DNA from: Liolophura sinensis
Lineage: Eukaryota; Mollusca; Polyplacophora; Chitonida; Chitonidae
Direction of reading: 5' to 3'
NCBI RefSeq assembly: GCF_032854445.1
Contig: NC_088300.1
Span: 66,934,984 to 66,998,983, forward strand
DNA length: 64,000 nt
The notes under the pieces were generated by a model that saw only the letters and a list, made by a program, of their open reading frames with translations, made no database searches and was not told the origin of the DNA. Of the stretch, positions 6,425 through 34,100 are shown one piece after another (position 1 is the stretch's first letter; every line of letters begins with the position of its first letter). Position numbers and translations under genes: made by a program.

Positions 6425-7810
6425 TAGAATGTCTCATCATAACCTTTTCGTGTACACAGAGTAGTTACATTTGGTGACAAAACATTTCCAGAATGTCTCA
6501 CCATCATCTTTTCATGTAGATATAGAGTAGTTATATTTGGTGACAAACACACCCAGAATGTCTCATCACAATCTTTCCTTGTGGCATAGAGTAGTTACAT
6601 TTGGTGACAAACACACCCAGAATGTCTCATCACAATCTTTCGTTGTGGAATAGAGTAGTTACATTTGGTGACAAACACACCCAGAATGTCTCATCACAAT
6701 CTTTTCTTGTGGCATAGAGTAGTTACATTTGGTGACAACACACCCAGAATGTCTCATCACAATCTTTTCTTGTGGCATAGAGTAGTTACATTTGGTGACA
6801 AACACACCCAGAATGTCTCATCACAATCTTTTCTTGCGGCATAGAGTAGTTACATTTGGTGACAAACACACCCAGAATGTCTCATCACAATCTTTTCTTG
6901 TGGCATAGAGTAGTTACATTTGGTGACAACACACCCAGAATGCCTCATAATAATCTTTCTTTGTGGCATAGAGTAGTTACATTTGGTGACAAACACACCC
7001 AGAATGTCTCACCGTACTCTCTTCGTGTACACATAGAGTAGTTACATTTGGAGACAAACACACCCAGAATGTCTCATCACAATCTTTCCTTGTGGAATAG
7101 AGTAGTTACATTTGGTGACAAACACACCCAGAATGTCTCATCACAATCTTTTCTTGTGGCATAGAGTAGTTACATTTGGAGACAAACACACCCAGAATGT
7201 CTCATCACAATCTTTCCTTGTGGAATAGAGTAGTTACATTTGGTGACAAACACACCCAGAATGTCTCATCATAATCTTTCGTTGTGGAATAGAGTAGTTA
7301 CATTTGGTGACAAACACACCCAGAATGTCTCATCATAATCTTGTCGTGTAGACATAGAGTAGTTACATTTGGTGACAAACACACCCAGAATGTCTCATCA
7401 CAATCTTTTCTTGTGGCATAGAGTAGTTACATTTGGTGACAACACACCCAGAATGCCTCATAATAATCTTTCTTTGTGGCATAGAGTAGTTACATTTGGT
7501 GACAAACACACCCAGAATGTCTCACCGTACTATCTTCGTGTACACATAGAGTAGTTACATTTGGAGACAAATACACCCAGAATGTCTCATCACAATCTTT
7601 CGTTGTGGAATAGAGTAGTTACATTTGGTGACAAACACACCCAGAATGTCTCATCATAATCTTTCGTTGTGGAATAGAGTAGTTACATTTGGTGACAAAC
7701 ACACCCAGAATGTCTCATCATAATCTTGTCGTGTAGACATAGAGTAGTTACATTTGGTGACAAACACACGCAGAACGCCTCACCATAAACTTTCGGTGTG
7801 GGCATAGAGT
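6425..7810. repeat. 64-bp satellite array, homogeneous part
   Basis: About 21 head-to-tail units of roughly 64 bp, each containing 'agaatgtctcatcacaatct' and 'agagtagttacatttggtga'. A higher-order pattern is present: the block around 6856-7041 recurs almost unchanged at 7369-7554, 513 bp later, which is eight units. The open frames in the array are products of the repeat and not genes. Confidence 0.95.
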
Positions 7811-8330
7811 AGTTACATTTTCAAGAGGAAAGCAAATCCAGAATTTCTCACCATAAACTTTTCGTGTAGACATGAGTGCTGACATTTAGACTGACACACA
7901 CATCCAGAATGTCTCCCAACAGAGGTTTGGGAAGAAATGGTAAAAACGTTCACCCAAAGTTTTCTGTAGACATGAGGTGTGACATTTTGGGCTGAGAAGC
8001 ACACCCAGAATGTTTCGCCATCAACATTTTGGAAAAAAATTTACAATAACATAGGCCTAAATATTTCCTGTAGACATGAGGTGTGACATTTTGGACTGAC
8101 AAGCCACACAGAATGTTTTACCATAATGAGTTTTGGAATGAAACACCAATAACACCCGTCAAAAATTTATTGGAGACATTGAGCAGTGATATTTCCATGT
8201 GACAAGCACGCGTACAATGTCTCATAAAGGTTTTGGAACAAACGGCAATAAAATCTACCCGAAGTTTTCACGAGTGATGAGTAGCGACATTTTGGGCTGA
8301 CAAACCACCAATAATTATAGCGTTTGGAAA
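7811..8330. repeat. 64-bp satellite array, decayed edge
   Basis: Units become longer and diverged but keep landmarks: 'ccagaatgtctc' or 'cagaatgttt', then 'tgtagacatgag', then 'tgacattttggactgaca'. The gradient from uniform to degenerate suggests an old array edge no longer homogenised with the centre. Confidence 0.8.
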
Positions 8331-15600: not shown

Positions 15601-18600
15601 CATAATAAACAATATTCATAACCCAGAACAAACACATAGCAGTCTGAGAAGAAGTCATACTGTGAATAGACAAGAAATCAAGCTGTGAACAGACAAAAAA
15701 GAAATCAAGCTGTGAATAGACAGGCACTTGTCTGCCAAGAAATCATGCTGTGAACAGAGAGGCACTTGTCTGCCAAGAAATCATAAAGTGAACAGTCAGG
15801 CACTTGTCTTCCAACAAATCATGCTGTAAACAGACAGGCACTTGTCTGCCAAGAAATCATGTCATGAACAGACAGGCACTTGTCTGCCACAAAATCATGC
15901 TGTGAACAGACAGGCACTTGTCTGCCAAGAAATCATGCTGTGAACAGAGAGGCACTTGTCTGCCAAGAAATCATAAAGTGAACAGACAGGCACTTGTCTG
16001 CCAACAAATCATGCTGTAAACAGACAGGCACTTGTCTGCCAACAAATCATGTCATGAACAGACAGGCACTTGTCTGCCAACAAATAAGACTGTAAACAGA
16101 AAGGCACTTGTCTGCCAACAAATCATGCTGTAAACAGACAGGTACTTGTCTATAATGTGAACAGATTGAGGTGTGAATTGCCAGGCACTTGTTTGCCAAT
16201 AACTAAACAGGATATCTGATAGAACACACACACACACATACACAAAAGCAACATATAATAATGTGTAACACAGATATATGACCCTAGAACAAGGGATTGT
16301 GAAACTACATGTAGTTTCATATGATTTTCTATTCTACTGTCCTCATACCATTAGTGAGCATAGCAAGCAAATTAAACACATAACACTGGCTGTGTGACAT
16401 TTGCAACATTTACATAGCCAGAAACCCATGATAACAACCCCAGACAAACCTGTGAGGTCTACTCCACTTTGGCCAGCTAGAAAATGAAAGTTGAAATCAA
16501 CCCTAGTAATACAGTGCCATTGTACTTTAACACATTTTCTTCTACTGTTTATTTATTTATACATTTTTACATAAAATAACTAGTATTTTCACCTACAAAA
16601 GGTTTGCCAGCTTTATGGGCGGAGGAAACTGGAGTGCCTTAGATAAACCACTGACCTTCTACAGGAACCTGACAAACCTACTGACCTAAAGCTTTGAATG
16701 TACGAGCACTAACTGAACTCTATAAATGTGGTCTCACTGGTCAGACAATTAAGCCATGGCAGTCGCAAGAGCAACTGTATATGAGCCAACTACATGTACA
16801 TCCCTTGACTTTTAGAGAAAATGGCTGTCGTTAGCTTGTTCAACAGTACATATATTCCTGAACATGAGAATTAAACACAAAGATATTTTTCTTCATTCTT
16901 AAATCATGATCTTCATTCTTTAATCATTTAAATTTTCAAAATTAATAGTAGCCACGGAGCATTATTGGAATGTTCTGGGAAAAAAAAACCCATTCAGTTT
17001 CTGTTTATTTCATGTCATTAACATACCTTTTATTTCAAGTTTGGGTTTCAGTTTATCTTTCCTAATTTCCTCTTTAATGGAGACATGTGACAGTGGAAGG
17101 TATATTGGAGTTAAGCCAGAATCTTCTCCACCCACAGAATCATCTATAAACTAAAGAAACCATGAACAATGTTTACTACGAACACAACAATGACTTGTGT
17201 ACATTACAAAAGAAGCCAATATCTTTTTAAAATTATTATTCTGCAATTAAGATGAGAGTTTCAGTGGTAAATTTTAATACTGGATGAGAAATAGAACATA
17301 AACTACTTACATCATCTCTGAGGAGGTTATCAAGAACTCTCTTTGTGTCCTCAGATTTCTCCTTCTTGATGGTGCTGCGAGAAGTACCTGCTCCTCGTGA
17401 CCTTCGATCTCCATAATCTTCCGAGAATGATGAAGCTGGAAACAAGCAATGAGGTTGCAAACTTTCTGACGCTGATGATGATAAGCTTTGTATTGTTTTT
17501 TTTTTTTGGGTAAAAATCCAGAACCATAGTCTGTTAACGTGGATTGAAAACATTTATCTCCTTCATATTTCCTGAATACAAATTAATCTGCAAGCATTCT
17601 GCAATGACTCTAAAAATCTGTAACAGAATCTAAAAGTATCTCCAATTTTGACAAATATTGTGGTCCAATACCTAGTAAATCTACAGCATGATGAAAATTA
17701 CAGGAAACAGTTCTTACTGTGACGAATACGCCTCTCTGTCGGCCCTTGTTCAAAAATGGAATGTGATTGTAGAATGTTCTCATCTCTGCCCCGTCCTCTT
17801 CCCCTACCACGCCCACCTCTGCCCCTCTCTGGGCGTCCATTGCGACCCCGTCTACTACTGCTTCCTGGTGTGCCACTTGAGGACGCTTCTTCAGTTCTAT
17901 ACCATTAAGTAAACATATAGTCATTTTGTTTAAAATTCAATATTTTAACATACATGTACACCAACATTCATGCCATAGAAGGCATGTGTGTGCTACCATG
18001 CAGGGTAATTCGATAAATTTACCTCTAAATGGACACATGAAAGATGTGCACTGGTTTTGGTTGATGCTTGTTTGGTAATTTATTGTAACCCGCAAACTGG
18101 TCTTAAGGCTTTGCCATTTACAATAGAAATCAATTTGAACACTGTGCGTTATTTCCTGTACATATCTACTTTATAACAGAATACCAGGCATTTGCCTTTA
18201 ATACTAATCTAGGTCAATGTTCGTAAGTTTTTGTAATTCATAAATCGAACCTAGGATCAGTAATACATAGGCATCCAACAAAAATAACAAACATCAGCTG
18301 GGAAACTTACTGAGCCTTGCTTCTATCTTTTCGGACAGGAATGCTTGGAGTGAAAGATTTCTTTGGAACACCACCAAGAGTTAGATCCCTGGGACCTCTT
18401 AACGAGGGTAATCTGTTAAACGTAAATGTGACAGTAGTGAGTACTTATCTTGTTACAATACATCTGATAAACATCAATTTTCAAACTTCCATTGTTTTAT
18501 CATATCGGTATTACACCTTTACTGTTATGATACTGATTTACATTATCACCAAAAAAAAAAAATTGTATCTTTTTGTCATATATCTGTTTTTATTTCTAAG

Positions 18601-20339: not shown

Positions 20340-23300
20340 ATGGGCTATCGGATGCCCAAATATGCTGTGCCCTGCAGCATAGCTGGTGTCCTGGTGGGTG
20401 GGTGTGTCCTCGTGAAGTAAGTTTATTTAAATCTCTATGTAAAGGCTACTCAAAAGGAATACATGAACCAGTGTTAAATATGTTAAGGGTGATCATCTTC
20501 AGTTTTAGTTTTTGTCATATCTGTGCAACAAGTGTTTCCTTAATTTACTTGAACATGTCTTATAAATGACTTATATTTTTAGTAACTCCCACCTCACCAA
20601 TGTAGGCAACTGGATATCTGAGCAGAGTCTGGGACAGACTACACCTCTCCCTGTACCAATCTTTCTGACATATGGGTCGAGTTTGGAAACACCCCACCTC
20701 TCAAACTGTACCCTATTTTCTGACATAAAATCAGAACAGAATTCAATTTTCTAATTTTTAAGCGATTATAGCATTATAAAGCCTGCAGTTTTAATTACAT
20801 GCATTCATACTAAAGCAAAAACAAAACATCTGAATAATAAATAAATGAAAAAGTAAGAAAATATGAATATTACAATATGAATATGTTTTGGTAAAGCCGA
20901 TAACATGGATTTATTACATGGGGGAGTAATCACTAGTTATGCTAGTCACACACATCCTTCTGTGGCTGACCTAATGCTTATTGTTGTAGAGATTACATGG
21001 GTGGTCAAATGTACAAATCTACAGAGCGGATTGTGGGGAAAACAGCTATTGTCACTGGTGCTAACACAGGAATAGGAAAAGAAACATGCAGAGAGTTAGC
21101 AAGGAGAGGTAACATTCTGCCAAATACATTTTGCTACTAGGCAGTTGTCATCATTATTTTTTGTGGATGTGATAATTCTATATACTGGTACAGTATGATT
21201 ATATTCAAAGGATAAAATCTCCTTAAGATTTCCCCTATATCACAGTGTGATGGGAAAGATGCTTCACCTGATGAACTGCATACCTTTCTTTGATGTTGAC
21301 AAAAGTTAGACTTTGAACTGGCAACCTGATGGCTACCTCACTGGCTGTTCAGTATTGCTTGGCCAAGGGGCTGGGTGTGGTTTTGGGTTTGATGTCTTTG
21401 ATGTGATTTTTCAGTGAGGCAGCATCTTAATTTAGACATATTCAGCCATAATCACTCATTCATGCATTCATTCAGTGAGACAAAGCAAAGAAATAAATTA
21501 AAAAAGAAAATGTAGGCTCTCTTAATTTTAATACTTGTCCCAAAAACTGACTGTCATCAAGTAACTGAAATCATGTTGAAAAACAACATTAAATCTGCAG
21601 CAAACAAACAAACAAATAAAACCCCTGCCTCAGGTCTGTATTACTCATCTGTAAATAACATAACTAAACATATGATAAAATGTAATAATGTCATGTTAAT
21701 GGCTCTTTGTTTTTCTGTGTACATGTATTAACTCCCAGGTGGCCGTGTGATTATGGCTTGTCGGGACCTGGAGAAGTGTGAGAAGGCTCGTGCGGAGATC
21801 GTGCTGGAGACAGCCAATAGGAACATTCAGTGTAGACACCTGAATCTAGCCTCGCTTGCATCCATCAGAACGTTTGCCAAAATAACGAATGAAAGTAAGC
21901 ATAAAAGTTGCCTGAGATGCTTGGTCTGATTTCTCAAAGCCATTTCTGACTTATGTTGAGATCTGGCAGAATTCATTGGTTCACTTGACCTCAGTGGCCC
22001 TGTGTTCAGAAGAAAATGCCTGCTTTACTGTAAGAGTTATCACCCCTTTATTGGTGGATCAATTCCCCTTTAATGTTATCTCTCAACAACTGTTAAATGT
22101 ACATGATTTACTTTCCTTAGATATGGATATGGTATGGGTGTGACATGGTTACAATCTGAATTTTGTAGAGGAGCCTCATGTTGACATACTGGTAAATAAT
22201 GCTGGAGTAATGAGATGCCCTAAACTACTGACAGAAGACGGATTTGAAATGCAGCTGGGTGTCAATCACTTGGGTAATCAAACACTGCCATCTGTAATCT
22301 GAAATACAGATGCTGACACAACTTGTGTGGTGATGAGGGGCTGTCACCCCCAATTCTTCTATTTTTGGGACAGATAGTAGTAGTGTTGAAATTAGAATAT
22401 TACATTTCTTTTATTACATTTATTACATTTCTTATTACATCTACCAGTCTTTTGGAAAAGTAAAAGTCTGAGTATGTTGTTTATTAGATGATCTAACAAG
22501 AAGAAAAAAACTCAATACTGGTAATCCTGCTACAGTTAGATATATATTGGCTAAAATGAGGAGACCAGGTTATTAAAAAATATTAGAAGAAATAAGGTAG
22601 CATCTGAAAACATTCCTATAAAAGAACTGTGTGCTGGTTACTATCTTTTATCTTGTAAAATGTTTACATGCTGGATGCTTATACTTGTGAATTTCAATGC
22701 AACTCATCTAGCTTGGCATGAATATAGAAGAAAGATCTCATGAAGATCACTAACAAAAGTCATCTTAGTGTCTGTATTTCTGATTATTCCACCAACTAGA
22801 ACAATGTTAGAAGTTCATTAAATCTGTTACCACTTAGAATTTGGTGTATCAGAATTATGGCAATTCCTTCTCTCTCACACTTTTTAGTATGTTCCACTTT
22901 TCTTTTTGAAGTTGTCATTCTTCATATTTGACTTGTAAGCATGCACTACAGTTCATGTATTCATGCCTGACACATTGATAAATTGGGGGGCCTCCGTGGC
23001 TTAGTTGGTTAGCAGGCTAGCGCAGCGTAATGACCCAGGAATCTCTCGCCAATGCGGTTGCTGTGAGTTCAAGTCCAGCTCATGCTGGCTTCCTCTCCGG
23101 CAGTGGGAAGGTCTGCTGCAACCTGCGGATGGTTGTGGGTTTCCCCAGACTCTGTCCAGTTTACACCCACCATAATGCTGGCCGCCACCGTATAAGTGAA
23201 ATATTCTTGAGTACGGCATAAATTACCAATAAATTAAATAAATAAATAAATTGATAAATTGGAGAAAATATATGAGCACATTATAACTTGTTTTGAAAAG

Positions 23301-26300
23301 GATTTAAGTGATTTGGGAGTATTTATTGGTAAAGAATTACAGTTTTTTCTGCTTTTTCTCCTGTTTTTTAAGGACATTTTTTGTTAACAATGTTGCTGCT
23401 GGACAAGCTGAAGAAGTCAGCCCCAAGCAGGATCATTAATGTATCCAGCATAGCTCATAACCGAGGCAGGATTAACTTTGAGGATCTCAACAGTGCCAAG
23501 TCATACAACCCTTCTGAGGCTTACAATCAGAGTAAACTAGCTAACCTACTCTTCACCAAGGAACTAGCCAAACGCTTGGAAGGTAGGACTCATTGTACAT
23601 AAAATATGTGAAAATATGTATATAAAAATATATATATAAATATTAAATTAGTGCCAGCTTTTGAACAGATGTTGAGTTGAAAACATGTATTGTGTGAATA
23701 AGAAACTGTGGTTGGGTACAACTTCCTTAAAAGGGAAAAAATTAACAGTTGGAACAATGTTGATCTGCCTACATATTGTCATGTATAAAATATAAAGAAT
23801 GATGTTTACAGTGTCAAAAGCAAAAAGGCATTTATGCTTTAATAAGCAATATTGAGGCTGGATAGCTCTCTAATGCTTAGAGTAATAAAAAGAAATGGCA
23901 GGGACACTGGGAAACTCAAAACAGCTGAATGACAATTGAGGAAAATGTTTATGCTTGTATAATACACAAACAGGTTCGCTTTTGGTTATCTTCTCCTTTT
24001 TGTGAGATCTCTCTATCACTACTGACATAAACTTTACTTTGTTTTTTTTAGAAACCTTTAGTCTGTGTACTAAGGTAAATAACTTCTCACTAAGAACTGT
24101 GTGAAATATATTTTTGTGGTCTTCAGGTACTAAGGTAACAGTAAATGCGGTTCACCCTGGGATAGTGAAGACAGAGTTGGGCCGTCATATGAGCATAAGT
24201 AAGTCCTACCTTTCGTGGATCTTCCTAGGCCCACCCAGCTGGCTACTGATGAAGACCCCCAAACAGGGAGCACAGACCACTTTGTTCTGTGCCTTGGACC
24301 CAAGTCTAGAAAATGTCTCTGGAAAGTACTTCAGGTAGGTGTTGTTATAATCAGTTTAGCTATTCATCTGTACTTCAGGTGGGTTCGTTATAATCAGTTT
24401 AGCTATTCATCTGTACTTTAGGTGGGTTCGTTATAATCAGTTTAGCTATTCGTCCGCACTTCAGGTGGGGTTGTAATAATCAGTTTAGCTGTTCCTCTGC
24501 ACTTCAGGTGGGGTTGTTATAATCAGATTAGCTGTTCGTCTGCACTTCAGGTGGGATTGTTATAATCAGATTAGCTGTTCCTCTGCACTTCAGGTGGGGT
24601 TGTTATAATCAGTTTAGCTGTTCGTCTGCACTTCAGGTGGGTTCGTTATAATCAGTTTAGCTATTCATCTGTACTTCAGGTGGGTTCGTTATAATGAGTT
24701 TAGCTATTCATCTGTACTTCAGGTGGGTTCGTTATAATGAGTTTAGCTATTCATCTGTACTTCAGGTGGGCTCAATATAATGAGTTTAGCTATTCATCTG
24801 TACTTCAGGTGGGTTCAATATAATGAGTTTATCTATTCATCTGTACTTCAGGTGGGTTCGTTATAATCAGTTTAGCTATTCATCTGTACTTCAGGTGGGT
24901 TCGTTATAATCAGTTTAGCTATTCATCTGTACTTTAGGTGGGTTCGTTATAATCAGTTTAGCTATTCGTCTGCATTGCAGGTGGGTTCGTTATAATCAGT
25001 TTAGCTATTCGTCCGCACTTCAGGTGGGGTTGTAATAATCAACAGTATTATCGTTAATAAGGATTACACTTTCTGAATATAGCACAGATTCTAGTGCTGA
25101 AATTTGGCTGAGACCACTGTGGGTTTCGAGCCAGCGACCTCAGAGTCAGGCACCTAACCGCCAGCAATACATGTCAACCGTCTAGACCACTCGACCAACA
25201 GGCCTTCCACAAAAAAATGGAAGGTAGTTGACCGGTAGACTTTACAGCGAACATGCATTACCCCTCTGATGATCATAAACGACGTCACTCCCTTAGGTGA
25301 ATATATCAGATAGGTATAGATGTCATTTAGAAAGTGGGATTAAGTAACAGTATTATGGAAGGCCTGTTGGTCGAGTGGTCTAGACGGTTGACATGTATTG
25401 CTGGCGGTTAGGTGCCTGACTCTGAGGTCGCTGGCTCGAAACCCGCAGTGGTCTCAGCCAAATTTCAGCACTAGAATCTGTGCTATATATTCAGAAAGTG
25501 TAATCCTTATTAACGATAATATTGTAATAATCAGTTTAGCTATTCGTCTGCACTTCAAGTGGGTTCGTTATAATGAGATTAGCTGTTCCTCTGCACTTCA
25601 GGTGGGGTTGTTATAATCAGTTTAGCTGTTCGTCTGCACTTTAGGTGGGGTTGTTCTAATCAGTTTAGCTGTTCGTCTGTACTTCAGGTGGGTTTGTTAT
25701 AATCAGTTTATCTGTTCCTCTGCACTTCAGGTGGGTTCGTTATAATCAGTTTAGCTGTTTGTCTGCACTTCAGGTGGGGTTGTTATGATCAGTTTAGCTG
25801 TTTGTCTGCACTTTAGGTGGGGTTGTTATAATGAGTTTAGCTGTTCCTCTGCACTTCAGGTGGGTTTGTTATAATCAGTTTATCTGTTCCTCTGCACTTC
25901 AGGTGGGTTTGTTATGATCAGTTTAGCTGTTCCTCTGCACTTCAGGTGGGTTTGTTATAATGAGTTTAGCTGTTCGTCTGCACTTCAGGTGGGGTTGTAA
26001 TAATCAGTTTAGCTGTTCCTCTGCACTTCAGGTGGGGTTGTTATAATGAGTTTAGCTGTTCCTCTGCACTTCAGGTGGGTTTGTTATAATCAGTTTAGCT
26101 GTTCCTCTGCACTTCAGGTGGGGTTGTTATAATCAGTTTAGCTGTTCGTCTGCACTTCAGGTGGGTTTGTTATAATCAGTTTAGCTGTTCGTCTGCACTT
26201 CAGTTGGGTTTGTTATAATCAGTTTATCTGTTCCTCTGCACTTATGGTGGGGTTGTTATAATGAGTTTAGCTGTTCCTCTGCACTTAAGGTGGGTTCGTT

Positions 26301-26670
26301 ATGATCAGTTTAGCTGTTCATGTGATGTATTTTTTATGGCATTGATGGTGCTAGTGGAAGAAACTTCACCTCACTTCACATAAAGTTTCTTATGTACAGT
26401 GACACATAAAGACTTTGAAATGATATCTTTTATGCCAACACCCAAAGTTTTCTGATGAGAAATTTATCCAACTTCACAAAAAAGCTTGTAAGATGGATGG
26501 ATCAATTATAATCAAAGAAAATGTGATCACTGAAAAATACCTAACTTTAAGTGAAGTACATTACTCTACTGTACTTCTTCATTAATTGACCTGTGGATGA
26601 AAGGATAAGGAAGAATTGCATTGATACATAACTAAACATGTTTTGGCTCTGTTTACACCGACTGTATCAT

Positions 26671-26702
<32 letters not shown>

Positions 26703-27226
26703 GACATACATGTATTGTGGTTCTGCATTATAGTGACTGTAAGGATAAGGAAAAATTACAGTCATGCTTGACTAAACATGTTATGGTTCTGCATTATAGT
26801 GACCGTAAGGATAAGGAAAAATTACAGTCATGCTTGACTAAACATGTTATGGTTCTGCATTATAGTGAGTGTAAGGATAAGGAAAAATTACAGTCATGCT
26901 TGACTAAACATGTTATGGTTCTGCATTATAGTGACCGTAAGGATAAGGAAAAATTACAGTCATGCTTGACTAAACATGTTATGGTTCTGCATTATAGTGA
27001 ATGTAAGGATAAGGAAGAATCACAGTCATGCTTGACTAAACATGTTGTGGTGCTACATTATAGTGACCGTTAAGAGAAGAAAGAATTACAGCAATTCTTA
27101 ACTAAATATGTTGTGGTTTTGCATTACAGTGACTGTAAGGAGAAGGAAGTGGCCCCTGAAGCAACTGATCCAGCTGTGGCAGCTAGACTTTGGGCAATCA
27201 GCGAGAAATGGACTAGACTCACGTGA
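20340..27226 (+). CDS. RDH13: RDH13-like retinol dehydrogenase (SDR7C type), seven exons
   Basis: An NADP-dependent short-chain dehydrogenase that interconverts retinal/retinol or related aldehydes; vertebrate RDH13 is mitochondrial. Exons: 20340-20416, 20990-21108, 21739-21894, 22169-22273, 23373-23582, 24127-24334, 27130-27226. All junctions are GT-AG and phases agree, giving 323 residues and a stop. Residues 1-26 are hydrophobic (membrane anchor or targeting). Cofactor motif TGANTGIG is at 48-55, NNAG at 127-130, and the active site is Ser178, Tyr203, Lys207 (AYNQSK). RDH13-typical stretches include [20 protein letters not shown] and [16 protein letters not shown], with a C terminus [14 protein letters not shown]. 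An AATAAA is at 27275-27280. Intron 4 holds a fresh SINE. Intron 6 is swollen by arrays made from its own splice sites (see separate entries). The paralogue on the opposite strand at 31133-35879 has matching exons. Orthology to RDH13 rather than RDH11/12/14 is likely but was not tested by phylogeny. Confidence 0.93.
22987..23250 (+). mobile_element. SINE family A, intact insertion with target duplication
   Basis: The best copy in the window: a 264-bp element flanked by a perfect 12-bp direct repeat (ttgataaattgg at 22975-22986 and 23251-23262). The head 'ggggcctccgtggcttagtt' carries an A-box-like sequence. 'gctgtgagttcaagtccagc' is B-box-like, so the head is tRNA-derived. The body contains 'cctgcggatggttgtgggtt'. 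The tail is 'gtacggcataaattaccaat' plus (AAAT)n. It sits in intron 4 of the RDH13-like gene, in the same orientation. The perfect duplication suggests a recent insertion. Confidence 0.92.
24332..25032 (+). repeat. 43-bp minisatellite derived from a splice donor, part 1
   Basis: About 16 units of 43 bp starting at the very 3' end of exon 6. Each unit reads 'tacttcaggtgggttcgtta' followed by 'taatcagtttagctattcat'. The real donor is TACTTCAG|GTAGGT. Every unit repeats TACTTCAG|GTGGGT, so the exon tail and donor have been copied in tandem. A foldback element interrupts the array. Confidence 0.95.
25041..25524. mobile_element. Foldback element with 169-bp inverted arms
   Basis: The left arm 25041-25209 and right arm 25356-25524 are near-perfect reverse complements separated by about 146 bp. 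An 8-bp duplication of the array sequence (taataatc at 25033-25040 and 25525-25532) flanks it, as for hAT-type insertions. Each arm holds a tRNA-Leu/Ser-like head ('ttggtcgagtggtctagac', then 'gctggctcgaaacc'), so it may have grown from two divergent SINEs. It has no coding frame. Confidence 0.9.
25525..26322 (+). repeat. 43-bp minisatellite derived from a splice donor, part 2
   Basis: Continuation of the array, about 18 further units, mostly of the 'ctgttcctctgcacttcag' plus GTGGGGTTGTTATAA type. This variant puts a pyrimidine-richer run before CAG|GTGGG than the left part has. The array decays after 26310. Confidence 0.95.
26668..26702. repeat. (ACTA)n microsatellite
   Basis: About eight ACTA units immediately before the 66-bp array. 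Confidence 0.9.
26703..27129 (+). repeat. 66-bp minisatellite derived from the exon 7 acceptor
   Basis: Six to seven units of 66 bp leading into the true exon 7. Each unit contains 'ttctgcattatag' plus 'tgactgtaaggataaggaa'. The real boundary is 'ttttgcattacag' plus 'tgactgtaaggagaaggaa'. The acceptor and first 19 bases of exon 7 have therefore been multiplied upstream. Because 66 is divisible by 3, the frame stays open from 26717 to a stop at about 27071, encoding a 22-residue repeat (LHYSD[CR][14 protein letters not shown]). Confidence 0.95.
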
Positions 27227-31132: not shown

Positions 31133-34100
31133 TCAGCTATCCCCGCTGTTTAAGCTTTTCACCGCAGTTGCGTCCCTCTCCAGGCGTGTCCATTTTACAC
31201 TTTCTTGCCACAGCTTTTTTGCCAGATCATCATCTATAGCCTGAGATTCTAGGACAGCCTCGTTGCATTCACTGCAAACAACAAGAGCACAATCCCAGCA
31301 AATCATCAATGAAATCATTCCAACAAGTATTCAGATGGTTTGTCCCCAAACATATAGGCTACTGACAGTTATCACATGTAACTGAACTGGGACTCCAGAG
31401 GTACTGCTACCTATTAAACATGCAAAACTGTAAATTCAATCACTCCAGTAGTTCTGCTACCTTTACAGCTAGAGCTTGACTCCAGCTTGACTGTACAGTT
31501 ACATGCGCAGTCTTTTTGCCGTGCTTCTGCCGACCATGCATGATTGTGTATGTATACAGCCTGATTGCACCACAGTTACATCCTGACTCCAGCAGTCCTG
31601 TAACTTTACATGCTGGCACTACCATTACATCCTGACTCAAGTAGTTCTGCTATTTACATGTTTGGCACTACAATTACATCCAGGCTCCATGTAGTTCTGC
31701 TACTTTACATGCTTGGCACTACAGTTACATCCAGACTCCAGTAGTTCTGCTACTTTACATATACATGCTTGGCACTACAATTACATCCAGACTCCAGTAG
31801 TTCTGCTACTTTACATGTACATGCTTGGCACTACAATTACATCCAGACTCCAGTAGTTCTGCTACTTTACATGTACATGCTTGACACTACAGTTACATCC
31901 TGACTCCAGTAATTCTGCTACTTTACATGTCTGGCACTACAATTACATTCTGACTCTAGTATAAATCCACTACTAAACATGCAAGGAACTACAGTTACAT
32001 TCTGACTCAAATTATTGTGCTATTTACATGTTTGGCACTACAATTACGTCCTGATTCCATTAATTCAGCTATCCAACACATTGCAGCATGACTCAAGTAA
32101 TTCTGCTATATGTATACAGGCATCCTAATGCTAAACAGCAGACATACCTATGTTGACAACAGAGAAATGGTAACAGACATAAGTTTTTTAACCCGTTATT
32201 TTTGACACAGATTAGACAAATATTTCAGTAATTGTAGCACAGCAGCAGTGAGGACACGAATAAAATACCTGTAGTATTTGCCAGTGCTGTCTTTGACTTC
32301 ATCGGCCACAGCACAGTGTATCGCAGTCTGTGCTCCATCATAGGCGGACTTCATCAGGAACCAGGTAAACGGAGAGAAGCTAAGACTGACGAAGGCGTTT
32401 GTCTTGAAGACGAAGTGTCTGTGGATATTGGTATTGGTGATACCTGGGTTTGCACAGTAGACATTGATGCCTGTACCTGTAAAAGATCATATAGAAATTA
32501 GCTTTATCTATTGTTTTTATTATGTGTCCAAGAATATTTCACTTTCATGAGGTTTATGCATGTAATATATATATAAACTTTTGATGTAAGGCTGTAGACT
32601 TTGGGAGTTGCACCTGAACAAAAACAAAACATATTCCAGATTATAGAAAATGTTTAATTCTACAATATACACATAACATCCAATTAACAACTAGAACTCT
32701 AATATCTTCTGTGTGGCTTTTCAGTGATACAGCACTATAACACTGTAAACAGTGAATATAGCTTGCTATAAGGAGACAGTGTCATGAAATGACCAAAATC
32801 ATGTATTACAAGCAATGTTCAACACCAAAGTGAAAAACCAAAAGAACAAAAAAAAAAAAAAGGGTGATGAATCAAAGAATTTAAGGCCTGAGAGTCTGCA
32901 GACATAACTAAAGTCAACCAAAAAAAAAAAAAGCTTCAAGGAAACCTACAGAAGTGATAGAAACCAAGAGCATTTAATCTATTTCGTATGAATGCAGCGG
33001 CAAAGATTTGGCCATGTGTGCATATCATATTCTCTTGATGACATTTACATAAAAAAGTCACCTTCTAATCTACGAGCCAATTCCTGGCTGAACAAGATGA
33101 CGGCTAGTTTACACTGAGAGAACTGCTTCCCGGAGTTGAATTCTGCTTCTTTCTCTCCATTAATATCGTCAAAGTTAATTTCTCCCAGCTTGTACGCTGA
33201 TGCAGTCACATTGATGATTCTGCCCGAGCCTGAGGATTTCATCACATCCAATAGCAGGTTGGTCAGCAAAAAATGGCCTGTAGACAAGACATTTTTCATG
33301 ATGTATTACACTGTTTGAACTTGTGTTACTGAAAGACACTGATGCTTAAATTTGGGAGTACAAGCAATTAACATATTTAGTATAAATAACAACATATGAT
33401 ATTTGGCTTCTTTTGAACAGAGGCATTTCTGAATACAGCTATTAGTGCTTTCATGTACGTACTACTGCTCATGGCAACCTTCAATTAACTACTCTTGCAT
33501 CATATATGCTTTAAATTACATTGGGTTACAATAAGATCTGAGGCCATTTCTTAAAATTAAAGTCAAGCTATTTTGCAATCCTTTGTGGCATATTTATTTT
33601 TGGTCAGCTTTACTTTTTGCAGAGAAACTGGCATACTTGTCCATGAAGCTACATACCCAAATAGTTCACTTGAAATTGCTCTTCAAATTTATCCTCCGTT
33701 TCTTTCTGGGGTCCCATCATTGTACCAGCATTGTTTACTAGAATATGCAGCTTGTTTTCCACTGAAAGTAAGACAACAAAATACACTGCAAAATATAGGA
33801 TTTCATTGATTTAACATTTGTCAGTGTTTTTTCAAATACATTGCAGTTACACATTATTATAATAGACATATGTATTTATGAAGATAAAGACATTACATCC
33901 AACATTAATAATTTTATTATTAGGCAGTGTTACAGCTATGGTGTGTCAAATGCAATGAAATGTAATCACGTATAAAGTTCTTCTGTCATGATAAAATACT
34001 ATAAATCCATTTACTCAATTCTACATGTATGTCCAAGTAAATCAACAGTCACTCTTACATACTGTCAGCTAGTCAGCAACTAGGTATTTCTTACTTGTTT

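Follow-up and report, generated by a model that had tools for sequence, protein, structure and literature searches.

The RDH-like gene examined here, from the chiton Liolophura sinensis, has an intron between its sixth and seventh exons that opens with the authentic splice donor and then repeats that donor dozens of times, which raises the question of how these copies arose and whether they do anything for the gene. The gene lies on the forward strand of the window (the whole stretch of DNA analysed, 64,000 nucleotides, C6:66934984-66998983, from a 632-contig genome totalling 609,464,459 bases), where tblastn with the paralog L005 gave matches near 20973, 21744, 22162, 23372, 24135-24335 and 27119-27214. 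Pfam places L005 among the short-chain dehydrogenases (adh_short, 1.5e-33); exons 6 and 7 of the RDH-like gene, taken alone, gave weak Pfam and PDB matches. The intron between them (24335-27129) is 2,795 bp long, and its features are collected in Table 1.

Table 1. Features of the exon 6-7 region of the RDH-like gene, in window coordinates
Feature	Position	Strand	Description
Exon 6, RDH-like short-chain dehydrogenase gene	24127..24334	+	tblastn with L005, paralog residues, translation; ends GKYF-AG, phase 2
Authentic 5' splice site GTAGGT	24335..24340	+	strongest U1 pairing among 35 sites
First block of 43-bp units	24371..25041	+	16 junctions; donors 24379 to 25024
Inverted-repeat transposon (MITE) inside 43-bp array	25042-25525		484 bp; 8-bp target duplication AATAATCA
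Second block of 43-bp units	25526..26321	+	18 junctions; AG|GT lost in three
66-bp array copying the exon-7 acceptor	26718..27148	+	six extra acceptors (TATAG|TGAC-like) before the authentic one; last copy includes exon 7 start
Exon 7 (SDCKEKE...WTRLT, stop)	27130..27226	+	translation; authentic acceptor is the sole CAG among seven copies

Splice-site arrays at both ends of one intron

The donor-side array, which spans 24327 to 26321 and begins at the exon-6 donor (24334|24335), contains 35 junctions, the authentic one and 34 copies, in units that carry the motif YACTTCAG|GTGGG and of which 8-9 nt derive from exon 6. The sequence-only reading, which had estimated that the donor was copied about 35 times, was right in this respect. 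It had also described AG|GT as present in every unit and the array as a 43-bp repeat, and both descriptions hold in part: AG|GT is kept in 31 of the 34 copies and lost in those that begin at 25551, 26196 and 26239, while the spacing is exactly 43 bp per step except at the first step (44 bp, with GTAGGT) and at the step across the inserted MITE. At the far edge, the last three units show junction changes that are rare or absent in the rest of the array. When pairing with U1 was calculated, the authentic donor reached -13.7 kcal/mol, and the 34 copies a mean of -10.4 and a best of -11.4, with none of them matching the authentic site. The array is far beyond what chance would produce. In a genome search with 713 bp of it, this locus alone matched, a missing match elsewhere being no proof of rarity.

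Since joining the flanks of the MITE gives a single copy of the 8-bp target together with an intact unit, the element entered an array that already existed. Its arms comprise 136 nt at 99% complementarity, plus 40-nt outer arms, and from the length of the target duplication we take it to be hAT-like. Related sequences are found across the genome as at least 215 matching pieces (the best 40 of 654 candidates were scored), some of them side by side. By eye, the arms contain a tRNA-like stretch; ARAGORN found no tRNA in it, and Rfam and tRNA scans over the window gave no matches.

The acceptor side of the same intron is duplicated as well, so that both of its ends are arrays. Here the six extra acceptors follow one another in 66-bp steps and all read TATAG|TGA, while the authentic acceptor reads TACAG|TGA; a genome search with 439 bp of this array likewise matched this locus alone, again without amounting to proof of rarity. 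Other minisatellites in the window lie at 6426-7915 (64 bp x 23) and 15699-16151 (38 bp x 12). A related RDH-like gene lies on the reverse strand, starting at about 35259 and reaching about 31.1 kb, and its homologous intron holds a 56-bp minisatellite (31567-32071) that, by eye, is not derived from a boundary.

Exon ends and donor-motif arrays elsewhere in the genome

Within the 43-bp unit, TACTTC encodes the YF of GKYF, and this segment recurs in the intron-bearing paralogs L007 (GKYF) and L009 (GKYY), in whose fetched stretches blastn-short found no match to the 43-bp array. Because GKYF-type residues recur in paralogs that lack this array, the direction of copying was from exon to array, in agreement with the earlier proposal that the array began as a duplication of the exon 6 boundary. 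L007, a paralogous RDH gene at C6:31.19 Mb (L007 1-1720), has a degenerate donor array of its own in the homologous phase-2 intron (983 bp), with a period of 103 by TRF and 12 copies of its exon-end junction at no more than 4 mismatches of 18, for which shuffling gave means of 0.025 (mononucleotide) and 0.01 (dinucleotide). As there is no blastn-short match between them, the two arrays look independent. The possibility that the RDH-like array is an ordinary intronic minisatellite that meets the exon end by chance, or that gave rise to it, can draw on the shortness of the exon-derived part, but we give it next to no credence, given that the copies cover the exact junction, that the encoded residues recur without the array, and that far longer exon copies occur at eight other genes (below).

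Arrays of this kind were sought across the genome as triplets of CAGGTRRGT, with the reversed pattern, CAGTGRRGT and CAGGARRGT as controls. At spacings of 34-64 bp, the triplets number 1,669 (CAGGTRRGT), 583 (reversed pattern), 817 (CAGTGRRGT) and 507 (CAGGARRGT); at 3-33 bp they number 780 for CAGGTRRGT and 298 reversed. The corresponding single 9-mers number 29,237 (CAGGTRRGT), 24,403 (CAGTGRRGT) and 19,067 (CAGGARRGT). Counted by hand among the matches listed, the first 18.84 Mb of contig C1 hold 22 distinct CAGGTRRGT arrays, 6 of CAGTGRRGT and 7 of CAGGARRGT, one of these seven (L036/L118) being a mutated stretch within a donor-motif array. In L118 (C1:2774813-2775884) a donor-motif array includes units that have changed to CAGGAAGGT, so that it also appears under the control motif. 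Among the matches listed, donor-motif arrays seem denser near the start of C1 (the first 7 Mb) than further in.

The share of donor-motif arrays among those listed (22 of 35) exceeds that expected from the abundance of the 9-mers (p = 0.006), and random seeding may therefore not be the whole story. One explanation would be that duplication starts preferentially at 5' splice sites, for instance via R-loops or effects that depend on U1, and does not strike at random. We regard this as doubtful, though it fares best among the alternatives considered: matching to a strict motif favours homogenised arrays, the copies within arrays inflate the 9-mer counts, and the excess comes from a hand count among the matches listed on one chromosome segment, with only two control motifs. 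From about 23 (3-33 bp) and about 22 (34-64 bp) distinct arrays per 100 matches listed on one chromosome, the genome would hold some 180 and 370 arrays of the two spacing classes, respectively.

To these counts we add the 5' flanking sequences of 39 donor-motif arrays from contig C1 and of 20 control arrays. Three of the 23 arrays in the 3-33-bp list were left out (two look like copies of listed ones and the third has a short repeat period), three arrays are common to both spacing lists, and the 39 include a near-duplicate pair (L022/L023). The Pfam scan omitted four of the 39, L012, L044 and L048 for having fewer than 20 residues and L023 for being the same as L022; eight ORFs picked by eye were compared with PDB, five of which gave the protein named, and ten, also picked by eye, with NCBIfam. 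On the control side, 15 of the 20 ORFs were compared with Pfam, ten with NCBIfam and none with PDB.

In eight of the 39 donor-motif arrays the 5' edge proved to be a conserved coding exon, and 31 are without such verification. By Pfam, the match runs to the last-but-one residue before the donor in a Fe-hydrogenase domain (L016, 1.8e-12), to the final residue in an alpha-mannosidase (L019, Pfam 4.2e-5, PDB 3.5e-23) and a SNF2 protein (L037, 9e-6), and one unit beyond the first donor in a GH31 segment (L020, 6.4e-14). By PDB, matches reach the final residue before the donor in a choline transporter (L047, 1.1e-13), OGDH (L041, 8.9e-20), Pol III RPC1 (L045, 2.7e-7) and ABCC (L046, 9e-16). At E < 0.001, none of the 15 control ORFs compared with Pfam and none of the ten compared with NCBIfam gave a match. 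With Pfam alone the difference is four of 35 versus none of 15 (p = 0.23); with Pfam, PDB and NCBIfam together it is eight of 39 versus none of 20 (p = 0.03), a comparison for which the extra ORFs were selected by eye and PDB was searched on the donor-motif side only. Not counted were a PDB match of L036 (a repeat-protein composite), a deoC match of L024 (E 0.0058) and Pfam matches with E > 0.001; L043 and L024 gave no PDB match. Open-frame length was set aside as a weak test of exon seeding (5' side 38 of 39 versus 3' side 34 of 38, p = 0.04; versus the 20 control arrays, p = 0.21).

All eight verified exon ends recur in the best-matching unit of their array, over 21-59 nt at 76-100% identity. 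We then considered 12 whole arrays, which include four (L024, L036, L042, L043) whose exon has no verification by database match: an exon-end copy of 11-59 nt at 76-100% identity is present in 11, and L042 has only 2 nt. These arrays comprise 8 to about 94 units, with donors 31-64 bp apart. Read-through is stopped within about one unit in 11 of the 12, and only the first donor therefore preserves the protein. Two general rules suggested by the RDH-like locus were rejected, namely that the first donor is stronger than its copies, which is true there but does not hold in general (mean rank 0.60 over the 12 arrays), and that unit length is chosen for frame, since periods are divisible by 3 in only three of 12. 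By sequence, the same kind of duplication recurs at other genes of this genome, the eight verified exons and L007; given eight verified among 39, it may affect on the order of 100 conserved exons genome-wide.

Origin of the array and consequences of site choice

We take the array in the RDH-like intron to be a passive, boundary-spanning minisatellite (a 'mirage') whose exon-proximal copy alone keeps the frame, with a probability of roughly 0.86. The mechanism we infer is that a segment over the junction of exon 6 with the intron, comprising about 8-9 bp from the exon and about 34 bp from the intron, would have been duplicated in tandem and then expanded to 34 extra units through unequal exchange or replication slippage; a transposon would later have landed within the array, and a separate second event would have copied the intron|exon 7 junction. 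The outermost copies would make the right mRNA and the remaining ones would leave with the intron, no function being needed. Both arrays would be tolerated because the exon-proximal copy at each end still gives a correct message.

By translation, on the donor side, only the first donor of the array keeps the frame and all 34 decoys yield the identical protein end ...GKYFR*. It had been expected that decoy use would shift the frame; the frame is indeed lost, and the effect is more than a shift, as every decoy leads at once to the same stop, the in-frame AGG TAG of the authentic site being responsible. On the acceptor side, the exon-7 frame stays open through the 66-bp unit. Splicing to any of the five upstream acceptors between 26734 and 26998 would therefore insert 22-residue repeats followed by a stop, and use of the one at 27064 would give a short protein end. 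From frame and conservation we infer that splicing of this intron uses the outer copies.

A speculative extension, which we think improbable, is that such arrays owe their persistence to being self-healing. In most units GT follows the last bases of the exon, and a junction made from an internal donor (for example ...CTGCACTTCAG|TGACTG) would constitute a new acceptor that could be re-spliced from the authentic donor; re-splicing would restore the normal mRNA, and every order of splicing would converge on one product. Were this true, introns of this lineage would be free to lengthen at both ends.

The uniform end product of the decoys might instead point to a regulated off-switch, whereby internal donors, with their moderate U1 pairing, would divert transcripts into one truncated protein, perhaps with nonsense-mediated decay, and so tune expression. 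Since the authentic donor already contains AGG TAG, however, the early stop needs no selection; the stop distance in the 12 other arrays varies from +1 to +275, and the junction is not conserved. We therefore consider a switch very unlikely.

Marginally less credible still is recursive splicing, in which exon 6 would be joined to successive AG|GT units as ratchet points before reaching exon 7, a ratchet or decoy role that the sequence-only reading had put forward. Besides the AG|GT retained by most units, the pyrimidine-leaning run noted earlier before the AG is real, with a mean share of 73% over -20 to -4, which equals or exceeds that of the two measured acceptors of the gene (71% and 59%, exons 6 and 7). 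Yet any duplicated CAG|GT donor necessarily shows AG|GT and so brings it for free, the intron is short, and the pyrimidine share in the 12 other whole arrays ranges from 25% to 74%, with four at or below 41%. Nor is the junction preferentially conserved: AGGT stands 11th of 43 unit positions here and has a mean rank of 0.45 across 11 other arrays (the twelfth has too few units), so that selection on the junction was rejected, while the donor 9-mer is slightly better conserved (mean rank 0.34) in arrays that were chosen for that 9-mer. Taken together, these data do not uphold a recursive, ratchet or decoy function.

Relation to known systems

A passive boundary minisatellite makes each such gene a natural test of how a 5' splice site is chosen, with up to dozens of similar donors of which the exon-proximal one is right in nearly all. 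In the RDH-like intron an outermost-copy rule is needed for the acceptors as well; there the copy that must be used is the last to be transcribed, which would fit exon definition better than first-come splicing. Gene finders may misplace exon ends in genes that carry mirages.

The human gene IFI6 is said to contain a minisatellite that supplies many donor sites to one transcript; its donors are likewise supplied by a minisatellite, but it is a single human gene. Tandem duplication of AGGT segments was reportedly described as a route to new introns by Rogers in 1989 and by Gao and Lynch in 2009; splice signals are duplicated there as well, whereas in the chiton an existing intron is lengthened. 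In human segmental duplications, tandem minisatellite-type repeats at exon-intron boundaries alter gene structure, and are discussed as producing novel introns or longer exons (PMC2812944), while in the chiton an existing intron grows. PMC5126111 describes recursive splicing in long introns, at zero-length exons with the consensus (Y)nNCAG|GTAAGT. The chiton units resemble such sites in having pyrimidines followed by AG|GT, a fit that is partial at best, their donor half being mostly GTGGGT or GTGGGG; they differ in that the intron is short, the units are tandem and near-identical, and the junction is not conserved within the array.

For boundary minisatellites as a class, our literature search of open-licence papers, mostly judged by listing, found amphioxus only, plus the human cases. 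The amphioxus 'mirages' are minisatellite-like tandem duplications of 5' and 3' exon-intron boundaries in Adh3, the globins BflGb6/BflGb9, TnC and PGBD5, with units of 10 to about 160 bp, many with AG/GT (PMC3087553, PMC3902484), and regular splicing, tested by RT-PCR, is reported there to be undisturbed (PMC3087553). On that description, the chiton arrays share with them the tandem minisatellite form, a unit spanning the exon-intron boundary, AG/GT in many units and both types of boundary. They differ in occurring in a mollusc, in several genes within one sample of arrays, with up to about 94 units, and perhaps also in the duplication of both ends of one intron, the RDH-like one; splicing was tested by RT-PCR in amphioxus, whereas the chiton arrays are known from their sequence. 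Boundary-duplicating minisatellites are thereby extended from amphioxus to a mollusc, in which they appear to be common.
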